Assembly: GCF_946480305.1 (NCBI RefSeq)
Contig: NZ_CAMLJQ010000022.1
Location: 1-64,000, forward strand
Length of the DNA stretch: 64,000 nucleotides
Direction of reading: 5' to 3'
Source: an uncultured Caldimonas sp.
GTDB lineage: Bacteria > Pseudomonadota > Gammaproteobacteria > Burkholderiales > Burkholderiaceae
A program made the translations under genes and the position numbers. The notes below the pieces were generated by a model. That model saw nothing but the letters and a program-made list of their open reading frames with translations, was not told where the DNA came from and searched no databases. Below, piece after piece: positions 7,741 through 28,971 of the stretch (the first letter of the stretch is position 1; every line of letters starts with the position of its first letter).

Positions 7741-7764
7741 TGTGTCCCTTGATGGAGGGACACA
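7741..7764 (-). terminator. Hairpin downstream of the PEP-CTERM gene
   Basis: A perfect 9-bp inverted repeat, TGTGTCCCT at 7741-7749 and AGGGACACA at 7756-7764, with a 6-nt loop, 20 bp beyond the stop of the minus-strand PEP-CTERM gene. Confidence 0.5.
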
Positions 7765-7783
7765 GGCGCTGCCGGCAGCAGCT

Positions 7784-8680
7784 TCAGGCGGGCGGGTGGC
7801 CGTGCTGCGAGGTACCGTTCACGCGGCGGCGCAGGAAGACGATGGCTCCCAGGCCTGCTGCCATCAGGGCATAGGTGGACGGCTCGGGCACCACGGCGAC
7901 CGTGCTGTGCGCACCCAGGTAAAGGCTGCCGAACCTGGGCGCATCGGAGTCGTTGGTGATGGTGATCTGGAGCCGGCGCTGCTCGGTGGTGCTGCCCGCC
8001 ACGCCATGCTCGTAGGTGAAGCGATCCAGGTTGTCCGTCACGGAAAAACCGTTGGTCTGGGACCAGGCCACGTAGGTGCGCCCCAGCAGGAAGCTGCCCT
8101 CGCCGTAGTACGTGCCCAGGTCGGTCAGGGTCACGGTGGCGTCTGCACTGATCGTGAGCGAGGTGTATGGCGCGAGCATGACCCCGCCCCAGCGTTCGGG
8201 GGTGGAGGTGACGATGTCGTGGCTCTGGGTGAGGCCGATCGCGGCACTGCCGAAGGATCGGCCTCCGTCGGACAAATACGCAAACGAATCGAACCCCTCG
8301 GATTCTTCGTAGCTGCCGCGCCCGGTGCCGGCATACCAGGTCACTTCCGAGCTGACCGCTGCTCCGAACACCGGCTTCTTGTCGATGTTCTGCACCACCG
8401 GCCCGGTGTAGCGGCCGCGTTGCACGAAAGCGTTGGCCTCGCTGTACACCAGGTTGTCCTCGGCGACGCTTGAGCCCAGCGTGTAGCCGGCGGCCAGCCC
8501 GTCGTCCGGGCGGAGATCGATCACTTCGTACCGTACGTCGGTCAAGCTGGCGCTGCTCTGCAACTGCGCGTGCGCGGTGTGCGACGCGAGCAGCACAACA
8601 GGCATCAAGGCGGCAGCGCGCAGGTGCCATGTGTCTGCGCGTGCTGCGTCGGGTTTGGGCGTGAGGGTGCGGTCCTTCAT
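7784..8680 (-). CDS. PEP-CTERM sorting domain protein, unknown role
   Basis: A 298-residue exported protein. The start was set at the internal ATG because GGGAGAACC sits 7-8 bases before it; the ATG five codons upstream overlaps that site. It has an N-terminal signal peptide ending about SHTAHA. The C-terminus has the full PEP-CTERM cassette: VVPEPSTYALM, a hydrophobic helix, then FLRRR. In known systems the tag is recognised by an exosortase for outer-surface or exopolysaccharide-linked sorting. No exosortase is present in the window. The body is beta-rich and resembles nothing I can name. Confidence 0.85.
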   Translation of the reverse strand: MKDRTLTPKPDAARADTWHLRAAALMPVVLLASHTAHAQLQSSASLTDVRYEVIDLRPDDGLAAGYTLGSSVAEDNLVYSEANAFVQRGRYTGPVVQNIDKKPVFGAAVSSEVTWYAGTGRGSYEESEGFDSFAYLSDGGRSFGSAAIGLTQSHDIVTSTPERWGGVMLAPYTSLTISADATVTLTDLGTYYGEGSFLLGRTYVAWSQTNGFSVTDNLDRFTYEHGVAGSTTEQRRLQITITNDSDAPRFGSLYLGAHSTVAVVPEPSTYALMAAGLGAIVFLRRRVNGTSQHGHPPA

Positions 8681-8947
8681 CTCGGTTCTCCCCATGGAGC
8701 ACGAGTGCGCTGCTCGGCGAGCGGCTGGCCGGTCGTGCTTGATGGCGATTTACTGCAGCGGCGGCGTGCCGTGCACCCGCGATCGAGGGGGAAGTGCTGC
8801 AACCAATGCGACAAGGTGTAGAGAGGCCGTGTGCCGGCGCCGGTGGCAACGGTATGCCGATGCTGCATGGGGCCGCGGCATGGCGCGTTGCCGCGTCGCG
8901 CCGCCGATATCATCGCGCCCCTCCAAATACTGCAAACCGGAGGGAAC

Positions 8948-9841
8948 GTGCCCCAAGCCACAAGAACGGCTGTCCGCGCATCGTGGGCGATCGTCATGTC
9001 CGCAGCCGCATTGGCGCCTGCACTGGCGTCGCCGCCAGCGAACAGCCCCACGCTCAGCCGCATCGCCAAGACGTCGGTGCTCAACATCGGCTACATCCCG
9101 AGCCCTGGCACGTTTGCGTTTCAAGATGCGAGCGGCAAGACCACCGGCTACTCCATCGACCTGTGCCTGCACGTGGCCGAGCAGGTGCGCAAGACGCTCG
9201 CCAAGCCGGACGTGAAGGTGGCCTTCCACCCGGTGGAGCCGGCGCAGCGCATTCCGCGCTTGAAGGCGGGCACCATCGACATCTCCTGCGGCAGCGACAC
9301 CAACACCGCGGCGCGCCAGAAGGAGGTGGTCTTTTCCTACACGGTGTTCACCACCGGCGTGCGCTTTCTGGCGCGTGCGCCTTTTGCGGGGCAGGGCGCC
9401 AACGACCTGTGGCGCAAGCGCGTGGCGGTGACCCGCGGCACCACCGCGCACGACGTGATGGAGCGCATGCGCAGCGAACAGGAAGCGGTGCCCGTGGTCG
9501 TGAACGAGCACGCCGAAGGTGTGCGCCTGGTCGAACAGGGCAAGGTGGACGCCTTCGCGCACGACGAGGTGCTGCTCTATGAATTGCGCGAGCGCTCGCC
9601 GCAGCGCCAGCAGCTGGTGGTCACGGGCAAGTTCATGACGGTCGAGCCCTATGCCTTCATGTTGCCCAAGGGCGATGCGGGGTTTCAGGCGGTGGTCGAC
9701 AAGGCGCTGCTCGGTTTGATGCAGTCCGGCGAGATCCACACGGTGTACCGCAAGTGGTTCGACACCGAGCAGCTGCGCGTGCCGATGAACGTCTACATGA
9801 AAGAGAACATCAAGTACCCGAACCGGTATGGGGCGCCTTGA
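8948..9841 (+). CDS. Periplasmic amino-acid ABC transporter substrate-binding protein
   Basis: A 297-residue solute-binding protein of family 3 (GltI-like). The GTG start at 8948 was chosen because GGAGGGAAC lies immediately before it and it is followed directly by a signal peptide (AIVMSAAALAPALA). Family features are LNIGY, GKTTGYSIDLC, and the signature after the ligand site, AGTIDISCGSDTNTAARQ. The C-terminal segment has SGEIHTVYRKWFD. The likely ligand is glutamate/aspartate or a similar amino acid. No permease or ATPase gene is adjacent, so it either serves a transporter encoded elsewhere or has a sensing role. Confidence 0.88.
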   Translation: MPQATRTAVRASWAIVMSAAALAPALASPPANSPTLSRIAKTSVLNIGYIPSPGTFAFQDASGKTTGYSIDLCLHVAEQVRKTLAKPDVKVAFHPVEPAQRIPRLKAGTIDISCGSDTNTAARQKEVVFSYTVFTTGVRFLARAPFAGQGANDLWRKRVAVTRGTTAHDVMERMRSEQEAVPVVVNEHAEGVRLVEQGKVDAFAHDEVLLYELRERSPQRQQLVVTGKFMTVEPYAFMLPKGDAGFQAVVDKALLGLMQSGEIHTVYRKWFDTEQLRVPMNVYMKENIKYPNRYGAP

Positions 9842-9848
9842 GAGGCTT

Positions 9849-9881
9849 GCGCCGCTCGGGGGGGAACCGCTCTTGCGGCGC
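9849..9881. terminator. Hairpin between convergent genes
   Basis: GCGCCGC at 9849-9855 pairs with GCGGCGC at 9875-9881 in the 39-bp gap between the convergent solute-binding protein and GH16 genes. It could stop transcription from both sides. The loop is long (19 nt) and there is no T-run. Confidence 0.3.
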
Positions 9882-10693
9882 TACCCCTCGCGCCGATAGG
9901 CTCGCACATAGTCGACGACGAACTGCTTGGGAAAGTGGCCGTCGCCCGGCGTACCGGCCCGCCGCTCGGCCGGCCTTTCGTAGATGCCGAGCATGAACTG
10001 CATCGGGTAGCCGGGCGACTGGTTCACGCGGCGCACGTGGAGGTTGTCGACGAAGAAGTCGATGTGCGTCGGCGTCCACTCGGCGGCATAGACGTGAAAG
10101 TGCGTCACGTCGATCGGCAGCGTCACTTCCTCGAAGTCGTCGGTGATGTCCGGGTCCTGAAAGGGGTGCACGCCCATGCCCACCTTGGCAGTGGCCGTGC
10201 CCGCGTGCTTGCCGAAGATCTCGCAGATGCAGATCTCGCTCGAGCGTTCGGGGCGGTCTTCGTAGCCGATCATCCACAGCGCCACGTGGTAGCCGGGCAC
10301 GCCCACGCCCTTGGCGCGCGTCTCGAAATAGCCATACGTGGGCGTGTAGAGCGCGCGGGGCGCCTGGGCTTCGCGCACCACGCTGTGCGGGTTGAAGCGG
10401 TGCTGACCTACCGCGCTGCCCAGCGGGCCTGAGAACACGCCGGTCTGCAGCGACGACACGCGGATGTCGCCGTCGTACTCGGGGCACCAGGCGGGCTGGT
10501 CGGCGTCGATGCGCAGCACGAGCTGCTGGTCTTCGATGTGCCAGCGCGCCGCGGCGCGTTCGGTGGACGACCACTGCGGCAGGTGGGCCGCGATCCACTT
10601 TTCGGGGTCGAGCGTGCCGGTGGTGAAGTCGTCGTGGAATTCGAGTGCGTAGCCGGGGCGTGCGATCGGGTTGGCGGGAAAGTCTTGTGGCAT
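9881..10693 (-). CDS. Glycoside hydrolase family 16-like protein with altered catalytic motif
   Basis: A 270-residue protein with no signal peptide. GH16 features are ALEFHDDFTTGTLDPEKW at the N-terminus, YGYFETRAKGVGVPGYH, the active-site strand, and HVYAAEWTPTHIDFFVD. GH16 enzymes hydrolyse beta-glucans and related polysaccharides with two glutamates in an E-x-D-x-(x)-E motif. Here the strand reads SSEICICEIFG: both glutamates (E153 and E158) are present but the central Asp is Cys. The nucleotide sequence supports this reading. Activity may therefore be changed. The divergent neighbour is a TauE-type exporter. Confidence 0.78.
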   Translation of the reverse strand: MPQDFPANPIARPGYALEFHDDFTTGTLDPEKWIAAHLPQWSSTERAAARWHIEDQQLVLRIDADQPAWCPEYDGDIRVSSLQTGVFSGPLGSAVGQHRFNPHSVVREAQAPRALYTPTYGYFETRAKGVGVPGYHVALWMIGYEDRPERSSEICICEIFGKHAGTATAKVGMGVHPFQDPDITDDFEEVTLPIDVTHFHVYAAEWTPTHIDFFVDNLHVRRVNQSPGYPMQFMLGIYERPAERRAGTPGDGHFPKQFVVDYVRAYRREG

Positions 10694-10901
10694 GCAGGGT
10701 CCGTGCGGGTGATGTCGGGGCGTGGGGGCAGGCCGACGATAGGAGCGCGGCATGCATGCGGGATTTCATCTGTTTCGCCGTGGCCGGTTGAACGCGATGG
10801 CCTGCGGATGCTACGTAAGCGCAGGCGCCGGCGCCGTGGCGAGAATGCCGGGCACGCCGCCACCGCAGTGCGGCACGGAACGCGGTCAACGAGGCAACAG
10901 C

Positions 10902-11654
10902 ATGGCACCTGGGGAGATGTGGCTCATTGCGGCAGGCGCCATGGCGGCCGGCTTTGTGCAGGGCCTGTCGGGCTTTGCGTTCGGCATGGTCTCGATGTCG
11001 ATCTGGGTGTGGGGCGTGGAGCCCCGGCTGGCGGCGGTGCTGGCGGTGTTCGGCGCGCTCGCGGGCCAGGTGGTGGCGGCCTTCACGGTGCCGCGGCACT
11101 GGAGCTGGCCGATGCTGCTGCCTCTGCTGGGCGGCGCGGCCGTTGGCGTGCCACTGGGCGTGGCGGTGTTGCCGATGCTGGATGCCGGGCTGTTCAAGCT
11201 GGCGTTCGGCAGCTTCCTGGTGGTGTGCTGTCCGTTGATGCTGCTTGCTCCGCGGTTGCCGCGTGTGCAGCCGAGGGGCCGGCTCACCGATGCGCTGGCC
11301 GGCGCGGCAGGCGGTTTCATGGGCGGGCTGGGCGGCTTCACGGGCGTGATCCCCACGCTGTGGTACACGCTGCGCGGGCTCGAGAAGGACGTGCAGCGCA
11401 GCCTGATCCAGAACTTCAACTTGGCCACACTGGCGGTCACGATGACGGCGTACGTCGCCACCGGCGCGGTGCAGCCGAGCATGCTGCCGGGCTTCGGCCT
11501 CGTGGCGGCGGCGCTGCTGGTGCCTGCGCTGCTGGGCGCGCGCCTGTATGTAGGCCTGAGCCAGCAGGCTTTCCGTCAGGTGGTGCTGGTGCTGCTCACG
11601 CTGGCCGGGGCGGCGGTGCTCGCGTCGGGCGTCGCGGCCGTCATGCGGGGATGA
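10902..11654 (+). CDS. TauE/SafE-family membrane transporter
   Basis: A 250-residue integral membrane protein with about eight hydrophobic segments. The ATG at 10902 was chosen over farther upstream codons because GAGGCAAC precedes it and the first membrane helix starts at once. The motif GFVQGLSGFAFGM in helix 1 and its counterpart GGFMGGLGGFTGVIP in the second half are the paired repeats of the TauE/SafE (DUF81) family, which exports sulfite, organosulfonates or other anions. The substrate cannot be read from sequence. No sulfur genes are nearby. Confidence 0.82.
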   Translation: MAPGEMWLIAAGAMAAGFVQGLSGFAFGMVSMSIWVWGVEPRLAAVLAVFGALAGQVVAAFTVPRHWSWPMLLPLLGGAAVGVPLGVAVLPMLDAGLFKLAFGSFLVVCCPLMLLAPRLPRVQPRGRLTDALAGAAGGFMGGLGGFTGVIPTLWYTLRGLEKDVQRSLIQNFNLATLAVTMTAYVATGAVQPSMLPGFGLVAAALLVPALLGARLYVGLSQQAFRQVVLVLLTLAGAAVLASGVAAVMRG

Positions 11655-16240: not shown

Positions 16241-17431
16241 CTACCGCGTGATCAGCCGCAACGGCTGCGATCCGGGGGCCGGTGCCGGTGTCAGCTCGCG
16301 GTCCTTGTGCATCAGGCGGCTGCGCCCGCGCTGCTTGGCGCGGTAGAGCGCCTGGTCGGCTTCGAGCAGCAGGTCGTCGAGCGTGAAGCCGGGGTCGCCG
16401 AGCACTGCCAGGCCGGCGCTGAACTCGAGCGGGTTCTTGTCGCTCGCCTCGTTGTAGCGCCGCAGGGCGGCGCGCAACCGTGCGTCGAACACCGCGGCGG
16501 CCTCGCTGCCGGCGCGCGAGAGCAGCACGCAGAACTCCTCGCCGCCGTAGCGGCAGGCCAGCTCCCCCTTGCGCATGCAACTGCGAAGCGCGGTGGCAAA
16601 GGCCTGCAGCGCCTGATCGCCGGCCGCGTGGCCGCCTTCATCGTTGATCTGCTTGAAATGGTCGAGGTCGATGATCAGCAGCACCATCGGGTCGTGGTGG
16701 CGCCGTGCCTCGGCCAGCGCACCTTCGGCACGCTCGGAGAAGGCGCGGCGGTTGAGCAGGCCGGTGAGCAGGTCGGTCTGCGCCTGCCGCTGGATCTCGC
16801 GCTCCGCTTCTTCGCGCCACGCCACGAGGCTGGCCACCGTGAGCAGCGTCGTCACCACTGGCTGCAGCAGCGCGGCCGCCAGGTTGACCGGGTGCGGTGC
16901 GCGCAGGTGCGGGTACAGCTCCGGGAAAAAGCCCCCCAGCACACCGCGCCAGACCGTGACCACGGCGAGCGCCCCCAGGGAGGCGAGCATCAGCCCCCGC
17001 CAGCGGCGACTGGCCTGGGGCGCCGCCCATGCGATGGCCACGCAGGCCCCCACCATCAGCGCGGCGAGGCCGAAGTTCGACCACGCCACCCGGAACTCGT
17101 AGCTGCCGAAGCCCAGCCAATAGCCGACCGGCGTGAGCGCCGCGATCACCCACATCGCCGCGCGCCCGGGCCGCGGGCCGAGCCAGTGGCGCATGGCGTG
17201 CCAGGTGAACACGAAGCTCATGCTCATCCAGGCGATCCACAGCGAGGAGAAGAACCGGTCGTCGATGGCGCGGGCGAGCAGGAAGCTGCCCCAGCCGAGC
17301 GCCTGAGTGACGATCGCACCTTGCGCGAACCGCGCACCCGCGCTGACCCGCCAGCCCATGATGGCCGGCAGTGCCAACGAGATCGAGAACACGTTGGCGA
17401 GCGTAACGATGATCAGCGTCTGGATGTCCAT
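16241..17431 (-). CDS. Membrane diguanylate cyclase (GGDEF)
   Basis: A 396-residue protein. The first 200 residues hold six or seven hydrophobic helices forming an MASE-like sensor. A short linker leads to a GGDEF domain with DLLTGLLNRRAF, DLDHFKQINDEGGHAAGDQ and the active site RYGGEEF. The enzyme should make cyclic di-GMP from two GTP. The product-inhibition site RxxD reads RKGE, so feedback control may be weakened. It lies 46 bp downstream of the degenerate HD-GYP gene on the same strand and is probably co-transcribed with it. Confidence 0.9.
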   Translation of the reverse strand: MDIQTLIIVTLANVFSISLALPAIMGWRVSAGARFAQGAIVTQALGWGSFLLARAIDDRFFSSLWIAWMSMSFVFTWHAMRHWLGPRPGRAAMWVIAALTPVGYWLGFGSYEFRVAWSNFGLAALMVGACVAIAWAAPQASRRWRGLMLASLGALAVVTVWRGVLGGFFPELYPHLRAPHPVNLAAALLQPVVTTLLTVASLVAWREEAEREIQRQAQTDLLTGLLNRRAFSERAEGALAEARRHHDPMVLLIIDLDHFKQINDEGGHAAGDQALQAFATALRSCMRKGELACRYGGEEFCVLLSRAGSEAAAVFDARLRAALRRYNEASDKNPLEFSAGLAVLGDPGFTLDDLLLEADQALYRAKQRGRSRLMHKDRELTPAPAPGSQPLRLITR

Positions 17432-17477
17432 GAGGGGCGCGGAGCCGATGATCCCGCGGGCGTGGCCGCGGAGTCTG

Positions 17478-18569
17478 TCAGGCAGCGACGCTGTTTGTTG
17501 TCGGACTTTTTCTCTCGGTGTCCCGCGGCGCAGGCTCCCGAGCCGTTTTGAGGGGGCGGGCGCTCGCCGCGGTCAGCACCCGCAAGTGGTTGACACGCAC
17601 GCGCAATGCGGTCGTGCGCAAGCCGTTGCGTACGGAGTAACTGCGCAACGAGCAGTCGCGGATGGCCGGCTGCAGCAGCAGCCCGCCGTCGGCCCGCCGC
17701 AGGCTGGCGACCAGCGGCGTGTGCGCCTTGTTGCCGCGCCGGACCACCACCGCCAGCTCGCCGTTGGCCAGCGCCACGTAGGTGCCCGGCGGGTACAGCC
17801 CGAGCACGCGCAGCAAGGTGGCGCCGATGCTGTCGGGGTGGCCGGCGCTGCCCAGGCAGGCGTCGCGGGCTGCAATGGCGGGCGAGGCGGCCTCGCGGGT
17901 CTTGCGTCGGCTCAGCTTGGCGATGTAGACGTCGACCCGGCGCAGCAACTCGGCCAGGCGCGGTGCCGGTTCTGCCGCGTCGACGACGGCCGCGTCGACC
18001 ACGGTGTGATGCTGCTCCACGACGGCCAGCCAGACAGGATCGTGCACGCCGGCGCCGCGCAGCATCTCGGCGCTGGCCCGCGCATGCCCTTCGATGAGCC
18101 GGCGCTGTTCGTCCGAGGGGGAGCTGCGCTGGTGCGCCAGCGTGTCCTGTGCGGCGGTCATGCTCACGTTCATCGTCAGCGCGGCCATCGCGAGCGACCG
18201 GATCTCGTCGTCCGACCAGCCGAGCCAACGGGCCGCCAGTTCGGCCACCACCGCGCATGCCATCGCGTGCCGGGCGCTGTAGCCGCCGAGGTCGTGCGCG
18301 GCGGCATGGAACAGCAGGTACAGCGCGCCGTCGGGCTCCCGGTCGGCCAGCTCGCGCATCTGGCCGGCAAGGCCGGTCAGCTCCACCAGCCAGGCAGCGT
18401 CGAGCTCATGCTGGGCGAGCAGTTGCGCGAAGCGACGGTGCAGGCGGTCCCAGCCGTCGAGCAGTTCGTCCGGGGAGGGTGGGCGTGGCAGCTCCGGGGT
18501 GGCCTCGGCGACGAGCGGCGCTTCCTGCGATCTGTCGTTAGCGGCTGGGTCGTCGGTTTCTTCGGGCAT
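17478..18569 (-). CDS. Degenerate HD-GYP-like protein
   Basis: A 363-residue soluble protein; ATG at 18569 was taken, with an in-frame GTG nine bases upstream as alternative. The layout is that of an HD-GYP cyclic-di-GMP phosphodiesterase: GYSARHAMACAVVAELA, then LAMAALTMNVSM where the HD dyad and GK should be, then GHARASAEMLRGAG and VVEQHH. The HD dyad is missing (MN in its place) and there is no GYP motif. Catalysis is therefore unlikely, and it may bind c-di-GMP or act as a scaffold. The C-terminal 100 residues look like the beta-rich extension seen in other HD-GYP relatives. It precedes a diguanylate cyclase gene. Confidence 0.6.
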   Translation of the reverse strand: MPEETDDPAANDRSQEAPLVAEATPELPRPPSPDELLDGWDRLHRRFAQLLAQHELDAAWLVELTGLAGQMRELADREPDGALYLLFHAAAHDLGGYSARHAMACAVVAELAARWLGWSDDEIRSLAMAALTMNVSMTAAQDTLAHQRSSPSDEQRRLIEGHARASAEMLRGAGVHDPVWLAVVEQHHTVVDAAVVDAAEPAPRLAELLRRVDVYIAKLSRRKTREAASPAIAARDACLGSAGHPDSIGATLLRVLGLYPPGTYVALANGELAVVVRRGNKAHTPLVASLRRADGGLLLQPAIRDCSLRSYSVRNGLRTTALRVRVNHLRVLTAASARPLKTAREPAPRDTERKSPTTNSVAA

Positions 18570-18804
18570 GGTTCTCACTCTGCCGCCGACCGGTGGCCCT
18601 TCACGCGGGACCGCCGGCCGTACGGCGCGAGAGCGGAATATCCACGGCCCTGCAGGGAGGCATGTTGATGCGCGTCAAGATTGCCGGGGCCGGCTGCCAG
18701 GAACGAGGGCACGCGGCCGGGTCGCGGCGGCCGGCGTCAGCCCCCTGCCGCCCGGCTGAACCGGCACATCGAGCCCACACAGGGCATCCGGCAGCACAAG
18801 GTGC

Positions 18805-18849
18805 TTGACGTCGCGGCAGTTCATATTTAGATTGTTGGCTAATTAGCCA
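18805..18849 (+). promoter_or_regulatory. Promoter and palindromic operator of the ArsR operon
   Basis: TTGACG at 18805-18810 and TAGATT at 18828-18833, 17 bp apart, form a good sigma-70 promoter. Directly after the -10 lies a perfect 14-bp palindrome, TGGCTAATTAGCCA (18836-18849), where a dimeric ArsR-type repressor would block transcription start. GGTGA at 18853-18857 is the ribosome-binding site for the GTG at 18864. Confidence 0.7.
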
Positions 18850-18863
18850 TTTGGTGAATTAAC

Positions 18864-19247
18864 GTGACAGTCGATCCCCTGAGCACCACCTTCGCGGCCC
18901 TGGCAGACCCGACGCGGCGCGCCATCCTCGCCCGCCTTGCAGAGGGCGAGGCCACCGTCAACGAGCTGGCGGCACCGTTCGATCTGCGCCTGCCCAGCGT
19001 CTCGAAGCACCTGAAGGTGCTGGAGCAGGCCGGGCTCATCGAGCAGAGCCGGCAGGCCCAGTGGCGGCCGCGGCGGCTGCAGGCCGCGCCGCTGAAGGAG
19101 GTGGCGCAGTGGGTCGATCGCTACCGCAGGTTCTGGGACGACAGCTTCGATCGCATGTCCGACTACCTCGATGCACTTCAGACCCACCCCGAACAGACCC
19201 ACCCCGAACAGGAGCAAGCCCATGGCCGAAGGAAGAAGCAACGCTGA
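18864..19247 (+). CDS. ArsR-family transcriptional regulator
   Basis: A 127-residue winged-helix repressor starting with GTG. It has STTFAALADPTRRAILARL at the N-terminus, a recognition helix in LRLPSVSKHLKVLEQAGLI, and a charged C-terminal tail with a repeat HPEQTHPEQ. There is no metal-binding Cys pair, so this is the non-metal subgroup that is usually paired with an AHSA1/SRPBCC gene, as here. The next gene starts inside it (26-bp overlap). It probably represses its own operon through the adjacent palindrome. Confidence 0.9.
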   Translation: MTVDPLSTTFAALADPTRRAILARLAEGEATVNELAAPFDLRLPSVSKHLKVLEQAGLIEQSRQAQWRPRRLQAAPLKEVAQWVDRYRRFWDDSFDRMSDYLDALQTHPEQTHPEQEQAHGRRKKQR

Positions 19248-19731
19248 GCCGCTGCCCGGCGAGCACGAGCTCGTGATCACCCGCGTGCTCGACGCACCGC
19301 GGGAACTCGTCTTCAAGTTGTGGACGACCCCGGAGCACCTCGCGCAGTGGTGGGGCCCTCGGGACGATGACGGCCGCGATTTCAGCGCGCCGTCGATCGA
19401 GCTCGATTTCCGCCCCGGCGGGGCCTACCGCATCTGCATACGCTCGCCGCAGGGAGACGACTACTGGCACAGCGGAACCTATCGCGAGATCGTCGAGCCG
19501 GAGCGCCTGTCGTTCACCTTCCGCTGGGAGGAAGAGGGTGCGCCGGTGACGCTGGTCGAGGTGAGCCTGGCCGAGCACGGGCCCGGGCGCACGATGCTGA
19601 CCTTCCGTCAGTCGGGCCTGCCCAGCGCGGAGTCACGCGACGGCCACGAAGGCGGATGGAAGGAGTGCATGGATCGCCTCGGCGAGCGCGCCGCCATGGC
19701 AGCCCGCGCGGCCGTCGGAGCCCAGGCATGA
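19222..19731 (+). CDS. SRPBCC (AHSA1-like) domain protein
   Basis: A 169-residue protein. The ATG at 19222 follows GGAGCAAGCCC and overlaps the ArsR gene. It has the AHSA1 signature: ITRVLDAPRELVFKLWTTPE, HLAQWWGPRD, then ELDFRPGGAYRICIRSPQG, and a C-terminal helix GWKECMDRLGERAA. This helix-grip fold binds hydrophobic ligands; the ligand is unknown. ArsR-AHSA1 pairs are common, and the second protein may be a ligand sensor or a stress protein. Confidence 0.88.
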   Translation: MAEGRSNAEPLPGEHELVITRVLDAPRELVFKLWTTPEHLAQWWGPRDDDGRDFSAPSIELDFRPGGAYRICIRSPQGDDYWHSGTYREIVEPERLSFTFRWEEEGAPVTLVEVSLAEHGPGRTMLTFRQSGLPSAESRDGHEGGWKECMDRLGERAAMAARAAVGAQA

Positions 19732-20081
19732 GCGGACGCTACCTGGGCAGCTGCCACTGCGGGCGCGTGGCGCTCGAGGTCACCGGCGAGCTGGAGAGCG
19801 CGATGGCGTGCAACTGCTCGATCTGCTCGCGCAAGGGCTCGCTGCTGTGGTTCGTGCCGCGTGCGCAGATGCAGCTGCGCACGCCGGAGCAGGCCGCGGC
19901 CACCTACACCTTCAACCAGCACGTCATCAAACACCGCTTCTGCCCGGTGTGCGGTATCCACCCGTACGGCGAGGGCACCGGGCCCGATGGTCAGCCGATC
20001 GCGGCGATCAACGTGCGCTGCCTCGCCAACGTCGACCTCGATGCGATCGAGGTCACACACTTCGACGGGCGCTCGCTCTAG
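19728..20081 (+). CDS. GFA (Mss4-like/CENP-V) family zinc protein
   Basis: A 117-residue protein whose ATG overlaps the previous stop (ATGA). Zinc-site motifs of the glutathione-dependent formaldehyde-activating family are clear: GSCHCGRVALEV, CNCSICSRKGSL, and RFCPVCGIHPYG. Family members bind two zincs; few have a proven reaction, and the name GFA does not prove S-hydroxymethylglutathione synthase activity. It is the third gene of the ArsR operon. Confidence 0.88.
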   Translation: MSGRYLGSCHCGRVALEVTGELESAMACNCSICSRKGSLLWFVPRAQMQLRTPEQAAATYTFNQHVIKHRFCPVCGIHPYGEGTGPDGQPIAAINVRCLANVDLDAIEVTHFDGRSL

Positions 20082-20165: not shown

Positions 20166-21362
20166 TCAGCCTGCGGCCGCCCGGTTGGTCACCAGGCCCT
20201 GTCCTGCCGCCCACGCGGCGACATCGTCGCGGCGGATGGCGGCGGCCATCAGCCCCGGGAAGGCATCCGGCGTGCAGGCGAACGAGGGCACGCCGAGCGC
20301 GGCCAGCTTGGCCGCGAGGTCGCGGTCGTAGGAGGGCGCGCCTTCGTCGCTCAGCGCCAGCAGCGTGACGAACTGCACGCCCGATTCGACCAGCTCTGCC
20401 GCGCGGCGCAGCAGCTGCGCCTCGACGCCGCCTTCGTACAGGTCGGAGATGAGCACGAAGATCGTGTTGCGCGGCTCGCGGATGATGGACTGGCAGTACG
20501 CCACCGCGCCGTTGATGTCGGTGCCGCCGCCCAGCTGCACGCCGAACAGCAGCTCCACCGGGTCGTCGAGCTTGTCGCTCAGGTCGACCACCGAGGTGTC
20601 GAACACGACCAGGCGGGTGCTGACCGCGGGCAGCGACGCGAGCACCGCGCCGAAGATGCTCGAATAGACCACCGAGTTCGCCATCGAGCCGCTCTGGTCG
20701 ATGCACAGCACCACCTCGCGCTGCGGACGCCGGGCCTTGCGGCCATAGCCGTGCAGCTGCTCGGGCACGATGGTGCGGTACTCGGGCTGCCAGTGCTTCA
20801 GGTTGGCGCGGATGGTGCGGTGCCAGTCGATCTCGCTGTGGCGCGGGCGCCGGTTGCGCTGGCTGCGGTCGAGGGCGCCGCTGACGGCCGAGCGCATCGG
20901 CTCCTCCAGCCGCTTCATCAGGTCGTCGACCACCTTCTGCACCACCAGGCGGGCAGTGGCCTTGGTGTTGGCCGGGATCACGCTCGCCAGCGAGATCAGG
21001 TTGGCGACGAGGTGCACATCGGGCTGCACGTTCTGCAGCATCTCGGGCTGCAGCAGCATGTCGCGCATGTCCAGCCGCTGCAGCGCGTCGCGCTGCATCA
21101 CCTGCACCACCGAGCTGGGGAAGTACTTGCGGATGTCGCCGAGCCAGCGGGCCACCGACGGCGCCGAGCCCCCGCGCCCGCCACGGCGGCTCGACTGCCC
21201 CAGTCCGTTGGGACCGTCGGGTTCGTACAGCGCGGCCAGGGCCTGGTCCAGTTCCGCCACGTTGCCGCTCAGGCCGCCGCAGCTGGCCTCGGCTTCGCTG
21301 CCCAGCACCAGGCGCCAGCGGCGCAGGCGTTCGGCGTCGTCTTGAAGATCGGTATCGCTCAT
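20166..21362 (-). CDS. VWA domain protein, last gene of the MoxR/SWIM operon
   Basis: A 398-residue protein. The ATG overlaps the stop of the DUF5682 gene (ATGA). The first 210 residues are helical and charged, with a Gly/Arg-rich spot near 60-65. A von Willebrand A domain follows from about 216: VVLCIDQSGSM gives the MIDAS DxSxS (D222, S224, S226), GGGTDI supplies the Thr and ISDLYEGG the Asp. All metal-site residues are present. VWA proteins paired with MoxR ATPases act as substrate or metal-loading adaptors. It closes a five-gene operon and its partner is probably the ATPase. Confidence 0.85.
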   Translation of the reverse strand: MSDTDLQDDAERLRRWRLVLGSEAEASCGGLSGNVAELDQALAALYEPDGPNGLGQSSRRGGRGGSAPSVARWLGDIRKYFPSSVVQVMQRDALQRLDMRDMLLQPEMLQNVQPDVHLVANLISLASVIPANTKATARLVVQKVVDDLMKRLEEPMRSAVSGALDRSQRNRRPRHSEIDWHRTIRANLKHWQPEYRTIVPEQLHGYGRKARRPQREVVLCIDQSGSMANSVVYSSIFGAVLASLPAVSTRLVVFDTSVVDLSDKLDDPVELLFGVQLGGGTDINGAVAYCQSIIREPRNTIFVLISDLYEGGVEAQLLRRAAELVESGVQFVTLLALSDEGAPSYDRDLAAKLAALGVPSFACTPDAFPGLMAAAIRRDDVAAWAAGQGLVTNRAAAG

Positions 21363-23680
21363 GCGGGCAGTCCCATCAAGTGGCGCAGCGTGGGCACGGG
21401 CAGCGCGGCGCGCGCGGCATCCCACGCGGGTGCGGCGGCCGCGGGGCGCGGGCCGCGGGCGGCCGACTGTGCGCGCACGCCCAGGTCGCGCCTTTCGCCG
21501 GCCGCGAAGGCCGAGAAGGTGCGCCGCACCAGCGGCAGCGCGCGCACGAAATGCTCCTCGGCCAGGCCGGCCAGCCAGCCGTCGACCAGCCGCCAGACGG
21601 TGTCGTCGTGCAGCAGCACCAGCGCATTGCGGTTCAGAAATCCTTCCAGCCACGCTGCGGCGCGTGCCGGCTCGGCGCCGGCCGACAACTGCAACGCCAG
21701 CGCATCGGCCGCGGCGTCCGCCTGCAGCACAGCGTCATCGAGCAGCAGCCGTGTGGCGAGGCCCGAGACCAGGGCGTGCGCGCCGGCCTGGGCCGCGATG
21801 GCGCGCAGCGCGCCGCGCCATGCCTCGCTCTGTTCTTCGGCCCCGCGCAGGCCGACGGCGGCGTGGGCGGCCAGCACCTGCTGGCGCAGCGATTCGGCGG
21901 CGTCGTCGTCGAGCGAGCCGCAGGCCAGCGGCAGGCTGATGCAGGCGCGCACGATGATGCCGTCGAGCACGTGCGAGACGAGCGAGGCATCGGTGCCGCG
22001 CACGTTGCCGTAGCGGAACACGTTCGCCAGCGGCGGCAGCGCGGCCAGCAACTGCAGCGCATCGCCGGTGGCAGCTGCGCGGTCGTTGAGGGCATGCGTC
22101 AGCGGCTCGATCGCTTCGGGCAGCTCGGCCAGCAACGCGCGGTCGATCAGCTGCGCGAGCTCGTCGAGCGAGGTGGCCTGGGCGGCGCGCTCGATCACGC
22201 GCGCGGTGCTCGCCTGCAGCACGGTGCGGCCCCAGCGGCTGGCTTCGATCAGCTTGAGCTCGAACTCCGGCTGCCATTGCAGCGTCCACACCTCGTGGAA
22301 GGTGCCGCGCGCGGAGCGCCCGGTGCGGGCGATCTCGCCCCAGGGCACGTCGAGCAGGCGCAGGCGATGCAGCAGGTGGCTGCGTGCCAGGTCGTTGGCG
22401 TTGCGCAGGTCGAGGTCGAGCGTGCGTTGCAGCGCCTCGGGCTTCAGCCGCAGCGACTTCTGCTGCTGCTCGACGTCGCGCTGCAAGGGCACGACCGGCA
22501 CATCGGGCGGCACGCGGCCGAGACGGTCGCCGACGACCAGCGCATCGTCGATGAAACGCAGCATCGTGTCGTCGCCCATGCACAGCACGGTGCGCGTGGC
22601 CTCGTCCAGTTCCTCCAGGCCCGGCAGCGGGCGCTCGCGCAGCGCGGCGAGCGTATCGGCCAGGCGCGCGGCCTCGATCAGGTGTGCGGAGGAGCAGTCG
22701 AGATCCTTCTCACGCATCAGCCGCGCGACGCGCGCCAGCCAGCCCACGGCGCGCGCCTGCGGGTTGCCGCGGCTGAGCCACAGGTGCTCGTACCAGCCGG
22801 GCGCCGCGATGCCGGCGCCATAGCCGCTGCTGCGCGCGAGGTGGCGGTGGGTCCAGGGGATCCAGGTGCTGTTCACCTTGACCTTGGGCAGACCCTTGAG
22901 CAGTTGCTGGTCGGCCTTGGCTGGCCCCATCTGCTGCAGCGCGCCCAGGTGCCACGCGCCGCACACGACGGCGATGCGCTGGTGGCCGGCCCGCTGCGCC
23001 TCACGCAGGCGCTGCCGCATGTGGGCTTCGCGCAGCGCTTCGCGGCGCGCTTCCCACGCGTCCTGCCGCGCCGGGTCGCCGAGTTCCTGGCGCAGCGTCG
23101 TCATCGCCTCGGCGATGGCGGCGAACAGCTCGGTGCCGTCACCGCGCTCCTCGACCATGTGGTTCCACCAGCTTTCGCCGTCGGCGTGGCCGGCCGCGCG
23201 GGCCAGCCAGTCAAGTGGATCGAGCGGATCAAGTGGATCGAGCGTTTCGGGCTGCGGCGCCTCGGCCTCGGTGGCCGGGGCAGGGCCGGCGGGCTCGTCC
23301 GTGCCGGCCGCGGCCTGCTCGCCGGCGGCCTGCCGTTCCTGGCGCCGCTGCTGCTCCAGCGCCAGCCCGTGGGCCACCGGCAGGTCGATCATTTGCACCG
23401 GCACGCCCCGTTCGACGGCCCAGCGCAGCGCCTGCCATTCGGGCGAGAACTCGGCGAAGGGGTGGTAGACCGCGAGCGCGGTGTCGTCGGGGCAGTAGCT
23501 GAGCCACGCGACCGGCGGTTGCATGGCTTCGTGCACCATGCTCGCGAGCAGCGCCTCGGCTTCCGGCGGGCCTTCGACCAGCAGGCAGTCGGGCTGCAGG
23601 TCGTCCAGCGCCTTCAGCAGGCTGCGCGCGCAGCCCGGGCCGTGGTGGCGGATGCCGAACAGGTGGAAGGGGCCGTCCAT
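21359..23680 (-). CDS. DUF5682 family protein
   Basis: A 773-residue soluble protein. Its N-terminus FHLFGIRHHGPGCARSLL is the mark of the DUF5682 family, followed by LVEGPPEAEALL. A second conserved patch, VVCGAWHLGAL, lies about residue 280. The layout (GxRHHGPG and later GAWH) faintly recalls the GxxH pairs of TraB/EreA-like hydrolase folds; that link is my inference. The middle contains a low-complexity Ala/Glu/Pro stretch. It sits between the MoxR ATPase (4-bp gap) and the VWA gene (ATGA overlap). Function unknown. Confidence 0.8.
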   Translation of the reverse strand: MDGPFHLFGIRHHGPGCARSLLKALDDLQPDCLLVEGPPEAEALLASMVHEAMQPPVAWLSYCPDDTALAVYHPFAEFSPEWQALRWAVERGVPVQMIDLPVAHGLALEQQRRQERQAAGEQAAAGTDEPAGPAPATEAEAPQPETLDPLDPLDPLDWLARAAGHADGESWWNHMVEERGDGTELFAAIAEAMTTLRQELGDPARQDAWEARREALREAHMRQRLREAQRAGHQRIAVVCGAWHLGALQQMGPAKADQQLLKGLPKVKVNSTWIPWTHRHLARSSGYGAGIAAPGWYEHLWLSRGNPQARAVGWLARVARLMREKDLDCSSAHLIEAARLADTLAALRERPLPGLEELDEATRTVLCMGDDTMLRFIDDALVVGDRLGRVPPDVPVVPLQRDVEQQQKSLRLKPEALQRTLDLDLRNANDLARSHLLHRLRLLDVPWGEIARTGRSARGTFHEVWTLQWQPEFELKLIEASRWGRTVLQASTARVIERAAQATSLDELAQLIDRALLAELPEAIEPLTHALNDRAAATGDALQLLAALPPLANVFRYGNVRGTDASLVSHVLDGIIVRACISLPLACGSLDDDAAESLRQQVLAAHAAVGLRGAEEQSEAWRGALRAIAAQAGAHALVSGLATRLLLDDAVLQADAAADALALQLSAGAEPARAAAWLEGFLNRNALVLLHDDTVWRLVDGWLAGLAEEHFVRALPLVRRTFSAFAAGERRDLGVRAQSAARGPRPAAAAPAWDAARAALPVPTLRHLMGLPA

Positions 23681-23684
23681 CGCG

Positions 23685-24791
23685 TCAGCCGAGGTCGCGG
23701 CAGGCGCGGTACAGGTCCTTCCAGTCGGCGCGTTCCTTGACCACCGTTTCGAGGTATTCGTTCCACACCACGGTGTCTTGCACCGGGTCCTTGACGACGG
23801 CACCGATCAGGCCGGAGGCCATGTCGTGCACGCGCAGCACGCCGTCACCGAAGTGGCCTGCCAGCGCCATGCCGCTGTTGATCACCGAGATGGCCTCGGC
23901 GGTGGACAGCGTCGACGTGGGCGACTTCACCTGCATCTTGCCGTCCTCGGTCTTGCCGTTGCGCAGCTCGCGGAAGATCTGCACGATGCGGCGCACTTCC
24001 TTCAGCGCGGGCGGCTCGGCCGGCAGCGCCAGCGCGCGGCCCATCTCGCCGACCCGCTTGACGACGATGGAGACCTCTTCCTCCTCGGTGGCCGGCACCG
24101 GCAGCACCACGGTGTTGAAGCGGCGCTTGAGCGCGGCCGAGAGTTCGTTGACGCCCTTGTCGCGGTTGTTGGCGGTGGCGATCACGCTGAAGCCGCGCGT
24201 CGCCTGCACCTCGGTGCCGAGTTCCGGCACCGGCAGCGTCTTCTCCGACAGCACGGTGATCAGAGTGTCCTGCACGTCGGCGGGGATGCGCGTCAGCTCC
24301 TCGATGCGCGCGATGCGGCCCTGGCGCATCGCCTGCATCAGCGGGCTGGGCACCAGTGCTTCTTCCGACGGCCCGCGCGCGAGCAGCTGCGCGTAGTTCC
24401 AGCCGTAGCGCAGTTGCTCCTCGCTGGTGCCGGCAGTGCCCTGCACGAGCATCGTCGAGTTGCCGCTGACGGCCGCCGCCAGGTGCTCGGAGACCCAGGA
24501 CTTGGCAGTGCCAGGCACGCCGTACAGCAGCAGCGCGCGGTCGGTGGCGAGCGTCGCCACCGCGATCTCCATCAAGCGGCGGTTGCCGATGTACTTGGGG
24601 CTCACCTCGAAGCCGTTGGCGAGCTTGCCGCCCATCAGGTAGGTCACCACGGCCCAGGGCGAGAGCTTCCAGTTCTCGGGGCGCTGGCGGTCGTCCTGCC
24701 GCTGCAGCTCGGCGAGCTCCTCGGCGAACTGCTGTTCGGCATGCTGGCGCAGCAAGTGGGCGGCGTTCGTGTTCGTCGTCATGGTGGTCAT
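23685..24791 (-). CDS. MoxR-type AAA+ ATPase of the SWIM/VWA operon
   Basis: A 368-residue AAA+ protein. Walker A is GVPGTAKS at 91-98, the Walker B region is RIARIEEL (E164-E165 where MoxR proteins usually have DE), and sensor 1 is ATANNR about 205-210. The long N-terminal helix region is charged. MoxR ATPases work as hexameric remodelling or metal-insertion chaperones together with VWA proteins. The start overlaps the stop of the DUF5691 gene (ATGA), and its stop is 4 bp before DUF5682, so expression is tightly coupled. Confidence 0.9.
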   Translation of the reverse strand: MTTMTTNTNAAHLLRQHAEQQFAEELAELQRQDDRQRPENWKLSPWAVVTYLMGGKLANGFEVSPKYIGNRRLMEIAVATLATDRALLLYGVPGTAKSWVSEHLAAAVSGNSTMLVQGTAGTSEEQLRYGWNYAQLLARGPSEEALVPSPLMQAMRQGRIARIEELTRIPADVQDTLITVLSEKTLPVPELGTEVQATRGFSVIATANNRDKGVNELSAALKRRFNTVVLPVPATEEEEVSIVVKRVGEMGRALALPAEPPALKEVRRIVQIFRELRNGKTEDGKMQVKSPTSTLSTAEAISVINSGMALAGHFGDGVLRVHDMASGLIGAVVKDPVQDTVVWNEYLETVVKERADWKDLYRACRDLG

Positions 24792-26320
24792 CGGGCAGTG
24801 GGCAGTTGGGACAGTGCACGGCGGGCGGCGATCAGCTGCGCCACCGTGTGCAGGGCTTCGGCATGCGCCGGCGTTTCGTCGCCGCGGCCTTGCACTTCGA
24901 GCGCGGCCAGCGCGTCGAGGTGCAGCAGGCAGCACAGCTCGGGCAACGAGGTGCGCAGGGTGTAGTCGTAGACGATGTTCGGGTCGCGCAGCGCGGCGCG
25001 TACCGCGGCGGTCAGTGCGTTGGAAAGCTCCAGGCCGAGGTGCTCGCCGGCCGGGCAGGCGCCGAGCAGTTGCGGCAGCAGCGTGCGCAAGGAGCCCGCC
25101 CCGTCGACCTGCCGCAGCCAGTGGCGCTCGCGCCGTTCCGGCGGCAACAGCGCGACGACGCGCGCCGGGTCTTCCTGCAGGCCCTGCCGGGGCCAGGCAT
25201 CGAGCAGCGCTTCGCACCAGTCGAGGTCGGCGCTGCCGAGCAGCACGTCCCGCCAAGCGCGCAGCAGCGCCTCGGTCCAGTCGGTCTTGCCGGCCCAGGC
25301 CAGCAACTCGGCAGCCGTCATGCCGGTGTGCGTGCACCACCAGGCCAGCGGCACCTGGCGCGCCAGCTGGTAGAGCCACCAGCCGCGTTCGCCCAGCGGG
25401 TCGTTCTTGGGCCGCGTGGGCTCGATGCCGTCGTGCTCCCAGGTGGCATCGGCCGCGGTGGGTGCATCGAGGGTCCACGTGGTGCGCAGCAGACCGCGCT
25501 CGCGCTGCAGCAGCGTTTCGAGGCGCCGGGTGGCGCGCGCGACGAGGGCGCTGCCGGGCAGCCGCACGAGCAGGCCGATGACGACCTGCCGCACCTCGCG
25601 GCTGCGGTCTTCCAGCAAGCCGGCCAGCAGCGGCTCGTCCTCGCCACCGAGGCCGAGCGCAAGGGATGCGAGCAGTTCGGCGCGCTCGCGCGCCGGCAGC
25701 GAGGGCAGCTCGGCGGCGACCCGCTCGCGTGCGGCTTGGGGGGCGCGCAGCCGCTCCTCGCGCAACAACTCGCGGCGTTGGTCCAGGCTGCCGTGCGCCC
25801 AGCGCGTGGCGTCGTCCGCATCGCCGCTCGCGCCCTGGGCGTAGCGCCAGTCGGCGTTCTGCGCGGCAAGCCACAGGCCGCGTTCTCCCAGCGCGCCGAT
25901 GACGGCGGGCCGCAACGCGGTGGAGCGGCGCCCGAGTTCCAGCACGGCCGGCAGCAGGGCGGGCGGCAGGCGCCACCCCGCCGCAGCCAGTGCCAGCAGC
26001 GCCTCGTGTTGCAGCCGGCCGGGGGCTTCGTGCACGACCCAGCGTAGGTGCATCAGCGACGGCGGGTCGGCCAGGGCGGGGCGCAAGTCCGCCGCTGCAG
26101 GGGCGGGCAGGTCGGCGGGCGCGGGTGCACCTTGGGCGCCGGCCATCGAGCAGGCAGCGAGCGCCGCGGCGGCGCGCAGCAGGCGCTGCGACGGCTCGGG
26201 CGTGTACTGCTCGATCTGCTGCAGCAGGTGCGCGACGGGCTCGGGCGCGTCGATGGTCCAGTGGTGCGGGCGTTCGGTGCCCACCATCGCGGCCGGCAGC
26301 AGGGCAGTCCAGGCACTCAT
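24788..26320 (-). CDS. DUF5691 family protein
   Basis: A 510-residue, strongly helical, Ala/Leu/Arg-rich protein that starts with MSAWTALLPAAMVGTER, the conserved opening of DUF5691. Repeated helix pairs in the middle (for example ELLASLALGLGGEDEPLLAG) suggest a HEAT-like scaffold; that is inference. No catalytic motif is visible. Its start overlaps the end of the SWIM gene and its end overlaps the MoxR start. DUF5691 genes are known chiefly from this neighbourhood, so it is probably an essential but uncharacterised part of the complex. Confidence 0.78.
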   Translation of the reverse strand: MSAWTALLPAAMVGTERPHHWTIDAPEPVAHLLQQIEQYTPEPSQRLLRAAAALAACSMAGAQGAPAPADLPAPAAADLRPALADPPSLMHLRWVVHEAPGRLQHEALLALAAAGWRLPPALLPAVLELGRRSTALRPAVIGALGERGLWLAAQNADWRYAQGASGDADDATRWAHGSLDQRRELLREERLRAPQAARERVAAELPSLPARERAELLASLALGLGGEDEPLLAGLLEDRSREVRQVVIGLLVRLPGSALVARATRRLETLLQRERGLLRTTWTLDAPTAADATWEHDGIEPTRPKNDPLGERGWWLYQLARQVPLAWWCTHTGMTAAELLAWAGKTDWTEALLRAWRDVLLGSADLDWCEALLDAWPRQGLQEDPARVVALLPPERRERHWLRQVDGAGSLRTLLPQLLGACPAGEHLGLELSNALTAAVRAALRDPNIVYDYTLRTSLPELCCLLHLDALAALEVQGRGDETPAHAEALHTVAQLIAARRALSQLPTAR

Positions 26321-27648
26321 GCGGCACCTCCGCGCTGCCACAGGCCGCCATCGTTCCAGGCCGTCAGCGGCCTCAGCATGCGCCCGTCCCATTCGCCCAT
26401 CAGCGCGAGCGGGGCACCGCCGGCATGGGCGAGCAGCAGCCATTTGTCGGCATCGGTGATCGACAGCGGCAGGCCCTGCCCCGAGGCGCAGAGCAGCAGC
26501 TGCGGCCCATCGTGTGCCAGGCGTGCGTCGGCGATCCGCATCGGATGCAGCGGGGTCCAGGGGCAGGCGGCAATGCGCTCGGCCAGGCGGCGCCATTCGG
26601 CCTCGAGTGGGCCGGCCTCGGTATTGGAGGCCGTGGGTGTGCCATGCAGTTCGTGGGCCAGCGCGCGCAGCCCGCCGGCGCCGGGGAAGAAGGCCAGCGT
26701 GGCCTCGACGCAGGTGCCGGTCAGCCAGCTCTGCTCGAAGCCCTTGCCGGCGTAAGCGTGATCGAGCAGCAGTGCACGGCGGCCGCTGTGCTCGCCTTGC
26801 AACCACACGCGGCGCTCGGTGAGCCGGTCGTCGCGCTCTTCGCTGATCTGGCCGAGCACGCTCCAGCGGTCGCGCAGCGTCTCGCCTTCGGCCAGCACCT
26901 CGGCCTTGTCGAACGGCCAGCCGAGCATGGCGCGCAGGTCGGCGCGCGCGGCCGGTTCGAGCTGCTCGTGCCGGCGCAGCGCATCGCAGGCGAGTTGCAG
27001 CAGGCCGAAGCGCTGCAACACCTGCTCGGGCCAGCCGGGGCCGCTGCCGATCAGTGCCGCGGCGTCGAGCACGCGTTGCGCGAGGCCGGGCACCTGCATG
27101 TCGACCAGGCGTGCGGCCATCGTCTTCCATTCATGGCGCTGCGCTTCGCCCAGGCTTGCGAGGCCGCGGCCCACCTGGTCGCCGAGCCAGCGGCCAAGTT
27201 CGTCTGCGGCTTGCGCCATGCGCGCCCAGCGCTGCTGCGCGCGTTTGGCGGCGGCTTCGGGGTCGGCGGGGGCCGCGGCGGCGGCCTGGGCTTTCTGTTC
27301 CTTCTTCTCCGCGCGTTCGGTGCGCGAGGCCAACCATTCGCCCACCCAGGCCGGCGCTTGCGAGCCATTGAAACGGGCGGGGTCGGAGGCACGCAGCAGC
27401 AGCAAGGCGAGGCCATGCTTGCAGGGGAACTTGCGGCTGGGGCAACTGCAGCGGAACGACGGCCCGCTCAGGTCCACCTGGGTCTGGTAGGGCTTGCTGC
27501 CGCTGCCCTGGCATTCGCCCCACACGGCCCGCTCGTCGGCGCCGAGCGTCGGCCACTTGGCCGGCGACGTGAGCCCGCGCGCGGCCTTCGCCGACGCGTC
27601 GTCCGGCGCAAGTGCGAGGACCGCTTCTGCGGTCAGATTTGTTGTCAC
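26317..27648 (-). CDS. SWIM zinc finger protein, first gene of the MoxR/VWA operon
   Basis: A 443-residue protein. The GTG start is preceded by GGAGGGGGAGT, an unusually strong ribosome-binding site. The SWIM motif C-x-C-x(6)-C-x-H is intact (C67, C69, C76, H78 in FRCSCPSRKFPCKHG). A charged Ala/Lys-rich coiled region (about 110-140) follows, then a helical C-terminal domain. SWIM fingers bind DNA or proteins. As first gene it may give the complex its target recognition. There is no intact gene for 280 bp upstream, only a broken usp fragment. Confidence 0.85.
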   Translation of the reverse strand: MTTNLTAEAVLALAPDDASAKAARGLTSPAKWPTLGADERAVWGECQGSGSKPYQTQVDLSGPSFRCSCPSRKFPCKHGLALLLLRASDPARFNGSQAPAWVGEWLASRTERAEKKEQKAQAAAAAPADPEAAAKRAQQRWARMAQAADELGRWLGDQVGRGLASLGEAQRHEWKTMAARLVDMQVPGLAQRVLDAAALIGSGPGWPEQVLQRFGLLQLACDALRRHEQLEPAARADLRAMLGWPFDKAEVLAEGETLRDRWSVLGQISEERDDRLTERRVWLQGEHSGRRALLLDHAYAGKGFEQSWLTGTCVEATLAFFPGAGGLRALAHELHGTPTASNTEAGPLEAEWRRLAERIAACPWTPLHPMRIADARLAHDGPQLLLCASGQGLPLSITDADKWLLLAHAGGAPLALMGEWDGRMLRPLTAWNDGGLWQRGGAA

Positions 27649-27717
27649 ACTCCCCCTCCTGCTGCAGGCGGGAGTGTAGGGCGAGTTCGCGGCGGGTTGG
27701 CGACCGGGCCTACGCCT

Positions 27718-28434: not shown

Positions 28435-28971
28435 ATGGACACCGTACTGCGCACGCTCGCGATCTATCTCTTCCTGCTGGTGCTGTTCCGGCTGGTGGGC
28501 AAGCGCACCTTGAGCGAGTTGTCGACGTTGGACTTCATCCTGCTGCTGATCGTCAGCGAGGCGACGCAGAACGCGCTGATCGGCGAGGACTACTCGCTCG
28601 TCACCGGCATGACCGTGATCCTCACGCTGGTGCTGATGGACCTCGGCTTTTCCATCGTGAAGAGCCGCTCCAAGGTGGTCGAGAAGATCGTCGAGGGCAC
28701 GCCGCTCGTGCTGGTGGAGCACGGCCGGGTGCTGGCTGGCCACATGAAGCGCTCGCAGGTCACCGAGGACGACATCCTGCAAAGCGCCCGGCAGGCGCAT
28801 GGGCTGGAGCGGATGGACCAGATCAAGTTCGCGGTGCTCGAATCGAGCGGCGGCATTTCCATCGTGCCCCGCGCGGCGCCGGAGGTGGAGCCGATCGATC
28901 AGCAGGTGGAGCGCGCGTTGCGCCGGCTGCTCGACGAGAAGGGCGGCGCGGGAGCCCCGCAGCGCGCTTGA
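28435..28971 (+). CDS. DUF421 (YetF-type) membrane protein
   Basis: A 178-residue protein with three N-terminal membrane helices and a cytosolic C-terminal domain. Family signs are FRLVGKRTLSELSTLDFILL, a helix with SEATQNALIG, and KVVEKIVEGTPLVLVEHGRV, then ILQSARQAHGLERMDQIKFA. The YetF family is widespread; its molecular role is unknown, although the Bacillus relatives influence spore-protein or membrane traits. Second gene of a two-gene operon. Confidence 0.88.
   Translation: MDTVLRTLAIYLFLLVLFRLVGKRTLSELSTLDFILLLIVSEATQNALIGEDYSLVTGMTVILTLVLMDLGFSIVKSRSKVVEKIVEGTPLVLVEHGRVLAGHMKRSQVTEDDILQSARQAHGLERMDQIKFAVLESSGGISIVPRAAPEVEPIDQQVERALRRLLDEKGGAGAPQRA

Follow-up and report, generated by a model that had tools for sequence, protein, structure and literature searches.

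A conserved MoxR-VWA operon with a TraB/Tiki-like candidate hydrolase, DUF5682, and its relative yehLMPQ in Escherichia coli

Introduction

Pairs of MoxR ATPases and VWA proteins are widespread, but to our knowledge few of them have a known job. We analysed one such pair, which lies in a five-gene operon with a SWIM zinc-finger protein and proteins of the families DUF5691 and DUF5682, in a stretch of 64,000 nucleotides from an uncultured Caldimonas sp. (contig NZ_CAMLJQ010000022.1 of assembly GCF_946480305.1, positions 1 to 64,000; hereafter, the window).

The NorQD system inserts iron by means of a metal ion-dependent adhesion site (MIDAS) and a VWA finger, and NorD is thought to push this finger into the NorQ pore and to grip the target by the MIDAS (PMC9976466). 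MoxR-vWA ternary conflict systems also exist, with the P-loop form GxxxTAKS frequent in two of the subsystems (PMC7159879, eLife 2020). A third relative is YehL, which names one of seven MoxR subfamilies (PMC3893208).

Escherichia coli K-12 carries yehI, yehK, yehL, yehM, yehP and yehQ. Since K-12 has yehLMPQ and the MoxR family has a recognised YehL branch, the word "undescribed", applied to the Caldimonas genes in the initial annotation, is too strong. The related operon is already known from E. coli, and what is new is the TraB/Tiki-like domain of DUF5682, the OB-like folds predicted in the SWIM protein and an architecture with YehI (DUF4132-like). We propose, giving it an even chance, that the operon encodes a single ATP-driven remodelling complex in which a MoxR-VWA motor is coupled to a TraB-like hydrolase.

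Results and discussion

Five genes form one conserved unit

The open reading frames (ORFs), as read in the window, are all on the minus strand, and each of the five domain labels scores above its Pfam cut-off.

26317-27648, minus strand: SWIM zinc-finger protein, 443 amino acids, GTG start (PF04434, 25.7 bits)
24788-26320, minus strand: DUF5691 protein, 510 amino acids (PF18944, 400.5 bits)
23685-24791, minus strand: MoxR/AAA_5 ATPase, 368 amino acids (PF07728, 135.1 bits)
21359-23680, minus strand: DUF5682 protein, 773 amino acids (PF18934, 895.2 bits)
20166-21362, minus strand: VWA (CoxE-like) protein, 398 amino acids (PF05762, 181.1 bits)
27655-27660, minus strand: Shine-Dalgarno AGGAGG, with a 6-base spacer to the SWIM GTG start (direct sequence reading)

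Overlaps of 4 bp join the SWIM and DUF5691, the DUF5691 and MoxR, and the DUF5682 and VWA genes, while a 4-bp gap separates MoxR from DUF5682. Coordinates, junctions and the strong ribosome-binding site before the GTG agree to the base with the initial annotation.

The loci compared were the best 80 of at least 567 confirmed relatives from a DUF5682 alignment scan (one genome per species); this sample was chosen by DUF5682 alone and is skewed toward close relatives of the window. The complete block, in the order of the window, was found in 67 of the 80 loci, and wherever both members of a neighbouring pair were present, strand and order were always the same (68, 71, 72 and 71 pairs). Judged by record titles, the loci span several phyla, namely Proteobacteria, Verrucomicrobia, Cyanobacteria, Acidobacteria, Bacteroidota (Niastella), Planctomycetota and others. 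Of 32 extra loci, taken from the main class and from two further phyla, five duplicate the first set; the remaining 27 comprise 19 complete and 8 incomplete blocks. The ratio of nonsynonymous to synonymous substitution rates (dN/dS), obtained from 43-48 pairs with dS < 2 within Comamonas, Variovorax, Acidovorax and Mailhella, had medians of 0.054 for MoxR, 0.078 for VWA, 0.172 for SWIM, 0.173 for DUF5682 and 0.268 for DUF5691. Because order and strand recur in so many loci and dN/dS is well below 1, the block is conserved beyond chance, and the comparison establishes, at the level of gene order and coding sequence, that the five genes are one conserved unit and that the operon is real, as had been supposed.

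Co-occurrence, the check proposed at the outset, was also far above chance. In 299 genomes of one phylum, DUF5682 was detected in 12 and DUF5691 above the cut-off in 6, all of them within the 12 (hypergeometric p = 2.4e-8, the centre genome being left out), and in each of the 6 the two genes lie at most about 5 kb apart on a single contig. Sub-threshold DUF5691 matches occur in two further genomes, both devoid of DUF5682.

The 13 incomplete loci, some of which are truncated by contig ends, hold DUF5682 alone (6), DUF5682 with VWA (2), DUF5691, MoxR and DUF5682 (2) or three other sets (1 each). Two cyanobacterial loci, L050 and L077, have 10 kb of flank on each side and yet lack the other four genes, and L062 has DUF5682 without the four in an upstream flank of 10 kb and a downstream flank of 2.1 kb. 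Such loci speak for genes that are merely co-transcribed and whose proteins act separately, but the tight spacing, the constant order across phyla and the fact that DUF5691 above the cut-off never occurs without DUF5682 in the 299 genomes make separate action very improbable.

A DUF5682 gene with the other four not nearby was likewise seen in L205, L206 and L210. DUF5682 is spread over two ORFs in L026, L051 and L065, perhaps through frameshifts or assembly errors, and the SWIM gene of L060 is also split.

DUF5682 resembles TraB/Tiki-type hydrolases

The DUF5682 protein is predicted to consist of an N-terminal alpha/beta domain (residues ~1-300) with an insertion and a helical-repeat C-terminal part (~300-740); its AlphaFold model has a predicted local distance difference test score of 86.8 and a predicted template modelling score of 0.82. 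In a 48-row alignment, G9-x-x-H12, E36, R217 and G241/H244 are invariant. The six residues of GxxH, E, R and GxxH are invariant across 29 TraB proteins of diverse kinds, and they match the DUF5682 set in equal order and at near-equal spacing. The first GxxH is G9/H12 in DUF5682 and G16/H19 in TraB, hhalign pairs E36 with TraB E45, the conserved Glu after strand 2, and the distance from R to the second GxxH is 24 in DUF5682 versus 23 in TraB. R217 and G241/H244 were matched by motif and spacing, outside any significant hhalign block. As judged from these alignments, the residues that never vary among diverse members of the TraB family are thus all present in the N-terminal domain.

Three features set DUF5682 apart from TraB/PrgY/GumN (Tiki) proteins: a near-invariant G244 that follows the second GxxH of TraB is missing, and DUF5682 has an insertion within ~102-230 and a helical C-terminal part of ~440 residues. 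A TraB profile built solely from relatives of E. coli YbaP was too narrow (P 0.26). No TraB-described chain was among the 50 VIA matches listed for DUF5682, which excludes nothing, and no convincing relative emerged when the Protein Data Bank (PDB) was searched by sequence with the alignments of DUF5682, SWIM, DUF5691, YbaP and the 29 TraB rows. ChaN (PF04187) was considered as a nearer relative, but its weak score of 24.0 was equalled by 2 of 150 shuffles, and this kinship is therefore not claimed.

In summary of these comparisons, the first 300 residues of DUF5682 look like a TraB/Tiki-type hydrolase domain, a resemblance newly recognised here, and DUF5682 is likely an enzyme. The GIRHHGPG and GAWH patches that had suggested an enzyme in the initial annotation correspond to the two GxxH motifs of the TraB-type domain. 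H12, E36, R217 and H244, the proposed active site, have equivalents in YehM, which makes point-mutant tests in E. coli possible.

The MoxR-VWA motor and possible cofactor loading

The MoxR protein retains the P-loop GVPGTAKS at residue 91, E164-E165, N208 and R223/R224, and the VWA protein retains the MIDAS residues D222-x-S224-x-S226, T281 and D307, whose conservation over 73 rows is 97% or higher. Both proteins thus keep, in their sequences, intact ATPase and MIDAS motifs. The P-loop form GxxxTAKS was found in 68 of 74 MoxR rows (the window, 72 loci and YehL) and in 19 of 19 YehI-type loci; five of the six rows without it end in TAKT. The window MoxR aligns with YehL over almost its full length and, judged by identity and by operon partners, appears to be of the YehL kind, a subfamily whose operon partners are of the same kinds (PMC3893208). 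Its PDB sequence relatives include midasin and NorQ, and the VWA protein has no PDB sequence relative at E 1.

The resemblance to NorQ-NorD, of the CGN subfamily, lies in a MoxR protein joined to a VWA protein with a MIDAS, and the SWIM, DUF5691 and DUF5682 proteins are additional here. A maturation machine that loads a cofactor or metal would be in line with NorQ as a relative of MoxR, with the VWA_CoxE-type partner and with the iron insertion by NorQD (PMC9976466); DUF5682 would then be a non-catalytic ChaN-like module that carries the cofactor. The ChaN similarity is, however, weak, and the SWIM and OB parts find no place in such a machine. ChaN-type members do bind heme, which favours the idea. 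NorQD, moreover, adjoins its target within one operon (PMC9976466), whereas no fixed target gene was found here. Among 666 flank genes of 81 loci (at most 10 kb of flank, non-overlapping longest ORFs, 60% coverage, genus labels from record titles), no family was shared by more than 3 genus-level groups, although with such rough gene calling a real partner could be missed. The widest flank families span 3 genus-level groups, so there appears to be no fixed partner outside the block, and the metabolic role that the initial annotation had set against its own proposal did not emerge. On balance we regard cofactor loading as unlikely. An earlier flank clustering (stop-to-stop ORFs, single linkage), in which clusters reached 20 loci from different genera, was superseded by this stricter one.

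Candidate recognition parts

The SWIM finger has the invariant residues C67, C69, C76 and H78 and is followed by a helical middle part. Two tandem OB-like folds were predicted, with modest scores, at the C-terminus (~250-342 and ~343-434). The finger together with these predicted folds supports a role of the SWIM protein as the recognition part, as had been guessed from the finger alone.

DUF5691 is the fastest-evolving of the five proteins, as would be expected for a recognition part, here a presumed adaptor, and its identity to the window protein is 20-60% in the other loci. Only weak HEAT-like matches were obtained with it, and we infer that it is a helical adaptor or scaffold.

A second architecture and the E. 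coli operon

A second class of DUF5682 proteins scores ~297-371 bits, with YehM at 331 bits. In 19 loci of this class, drawn from the 299-genome phylum sample and a 250-genome family sample, DUF5691 was never present (0/19), whereas a YehI-like gene and a VWA gene were each present in 17; in 14 loci the YehI-like gene shares the strand of MoxR and lies no more than 600 bp from it. A SWIM gene was detected in 9 of the 19 (profile or phmmer, E 1e-4), two of these matches being weak. The helical partners seemingly interchange, DUF5691 in the first type and the YehI-like protein in the second, since the one is absent where the other is common, and the YehI-like protein thus seems to stand in for DUF5691. 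The DUF4132 domain was confirmed by Pfam in YehI and in a Niastella gene (L068:13477-16416) only, and HEAT repeats are present in the Niastella protein. Homology between DUF5691 and DUF4132 was not established: the hhalign score of 26.0 exceeded the highest value from 40 shuffles, 19.5, but P was 0.078 and the probability 0.7%. The loci concerned are L163-L181 and L001:2280-12945, YehM-type DUF5682 being accompanied by YehI-like (DUF4132) genes in 17 of 19 loci and in E. coli.

The products of yehLMPQ resemble those of the window, with identities of 40% between YehL and MoxR, 26% between YehM and DUF5682 and 38% between YehP and the VWA protein, and YehQ has a SWIM domain. The E. coli operon differs in its order, MoxR-DUF5682-VWA-SWIM, and in having no DUF5691 but the DUF4132 protein YehI upstream, with yehK intervening. 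YehQ and the window SWIM protein share the SWIM domain only and give no BLASTP alignment.

The E. coli operon is near-core: yehLMPQ was matched in 5301 of 5426 complete genomes (in 5162 with at least 80% cover), at 5320 chromosomal and 2 plasmid places and mostly in single copy, and yehI was matched in 5283 genomes. No function was found assigned to the operon or to its E. coli relative in the open-licence literature, in which DUF5682 and DUF5691 are not mentioned, and among the open-licence papers that name at least two of yehL, yehM, yehP, yehQ, molR and yehI, no title gives their function. The E. coli relative turns an anonymous operon, present in several phyla, into a concrete enzyme question, and K-12 is the best test bed.

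Proposed mechanism

In the remodelling complex that we propose, a YehL-type MoxR hexamer would bind the VWA protein as its adaptor, by analogy with NorQ-NorD, and would spend ATP on remodelling a target that the VWA protein grips by its MIDAS. Recognition of this target, most probably a nucleic acid or nucleoprotein, would fall to the SWIM protein with its zinc finger and the OB-like folds predicted in it, and specificity would be set by DUF5691 (DUF4132 in the YehI type) as a helical adaptor. Docked by its helical C-terminal part, DUF5682 may hydrolyse the presented target at a peptide, ester or amide bond. Such a complex would probably serve in cytoplasmic stress or quality control.

The complex could also be a sensor of nucleic acids that is gated by ATP and has a hydrolase of its own: SWIM-OB would bind exposed single-stranded DNA or RNA, MoxR-VWA would remodel the nucleoprotein so bound, and DUF5682, with its TraB fold, would cleave the protein or adduct presented to it. 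We consider this quite unlikely; were it true, bacteria would have a machine in which a MoxR motor is combined with a Tiki-type hydrolase, and this machine would be near-core in E. coli.

Defence as an alternative role

A conflict system, a role hinted at in the initial annotation, would use SWIM-OB to sense foreign or damaged nucleic acid, MoxR-VWA as the gate and DUF5682 as the effector hydrolase. The known MoxR-vWA ternary conflict systems share with this operon the MoxR and vWA core and the P-loop form GxxxTAKS, as in subsystems 3 and 4 (PMC7159879). The third component here is DUF5682, and no VMAP, iSTAND, FtsH or beta-propeller domain was found over the Pfam cut-off in the five proteins (bpMoxR 22.8 bits, cut-off 27; nSTAND matches far under their cut-offs). 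The match of MoxR to the MadB ATPase, which could also point to defence, is sub-threshold (54 bits, cut-off 475); no convincing match was obtained with NCBIfam or with the PADLOC models, the best PADLOC match having E 0.0013.

Patchiness across species is in favour of defence: DUF5682 was detected in 12/299 genomes of the phylum, 28/250 of the family, and 10/194 (over the cut-off) and 7/198 of two other samples. The near-core, mostly single-copy and chromosomal state in E. coli argues against it, as do the rarity of DUF5682 in plasmid records (31/72,556, some of them chromosome-sized) and phage records (1/50,697) and its absence, as a confirmed match, from viral contigs in one scan. Except for DUF5691/DUF4132, parts are not exchanged for variable effectors.

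The block is interrupted by other genes in 12 of the 80 loci, and 7 of these 12 carry genes that we interpret as conflict-type. Seventeen inserted ORFs were scanned with Pfam and 10 of these with PADLOC.

L035 (Allochromatium), 7841-9855: type II restriction endonuclease and methyltransferase between MoxR and DUF5682
L022 (Polaromonas, metagenome-assembled genome), 10197-11400: DarT and NADAR antitoxin genes between DUF5682 and VWA
L053: NADAR insert
L020: PIN insert
L060: Uma2 insert
L064: SUKH insert
L015 (Variovorax), 5700-9956: HSP90-like ATPase (partial TmtA similarity) and TPR gene between MoxR and DUF5682

The inserts of L016, L018, L023, L047 and L054 gave nothing firm, the DUF705 match of L016 being barely above the cut-off. 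Long gaps occur in 14 of the 80 loci, but in L026 and L051 the gap falls where the DUF5682 ORF is split, and these two are not among the 12. The inserted defence genes are a hint of a conflict link, but as there is no baseline for such genes in other operons, no enrichment is claimed. Taken together, these data do not show a conflict role for the operon, and we consider such a role rather unlikely.

Gaps of 4.3 kb similar to that of L015 were seen in L189 and L192. The sole match in the phage collection (MT835988.1:10650-12758) is 32% identical and comes from a human faecal sample. In the window, the neighbours of the operon are ordinary chromosomal genes (16241-20081, 28435-28971 and 59777-63709), of the GGDEF, HD-domain-like, ArsR-type helix-turn-helix, AHSA1, GFA and DUF421 kinds, with a PilY1-like gene farther away.
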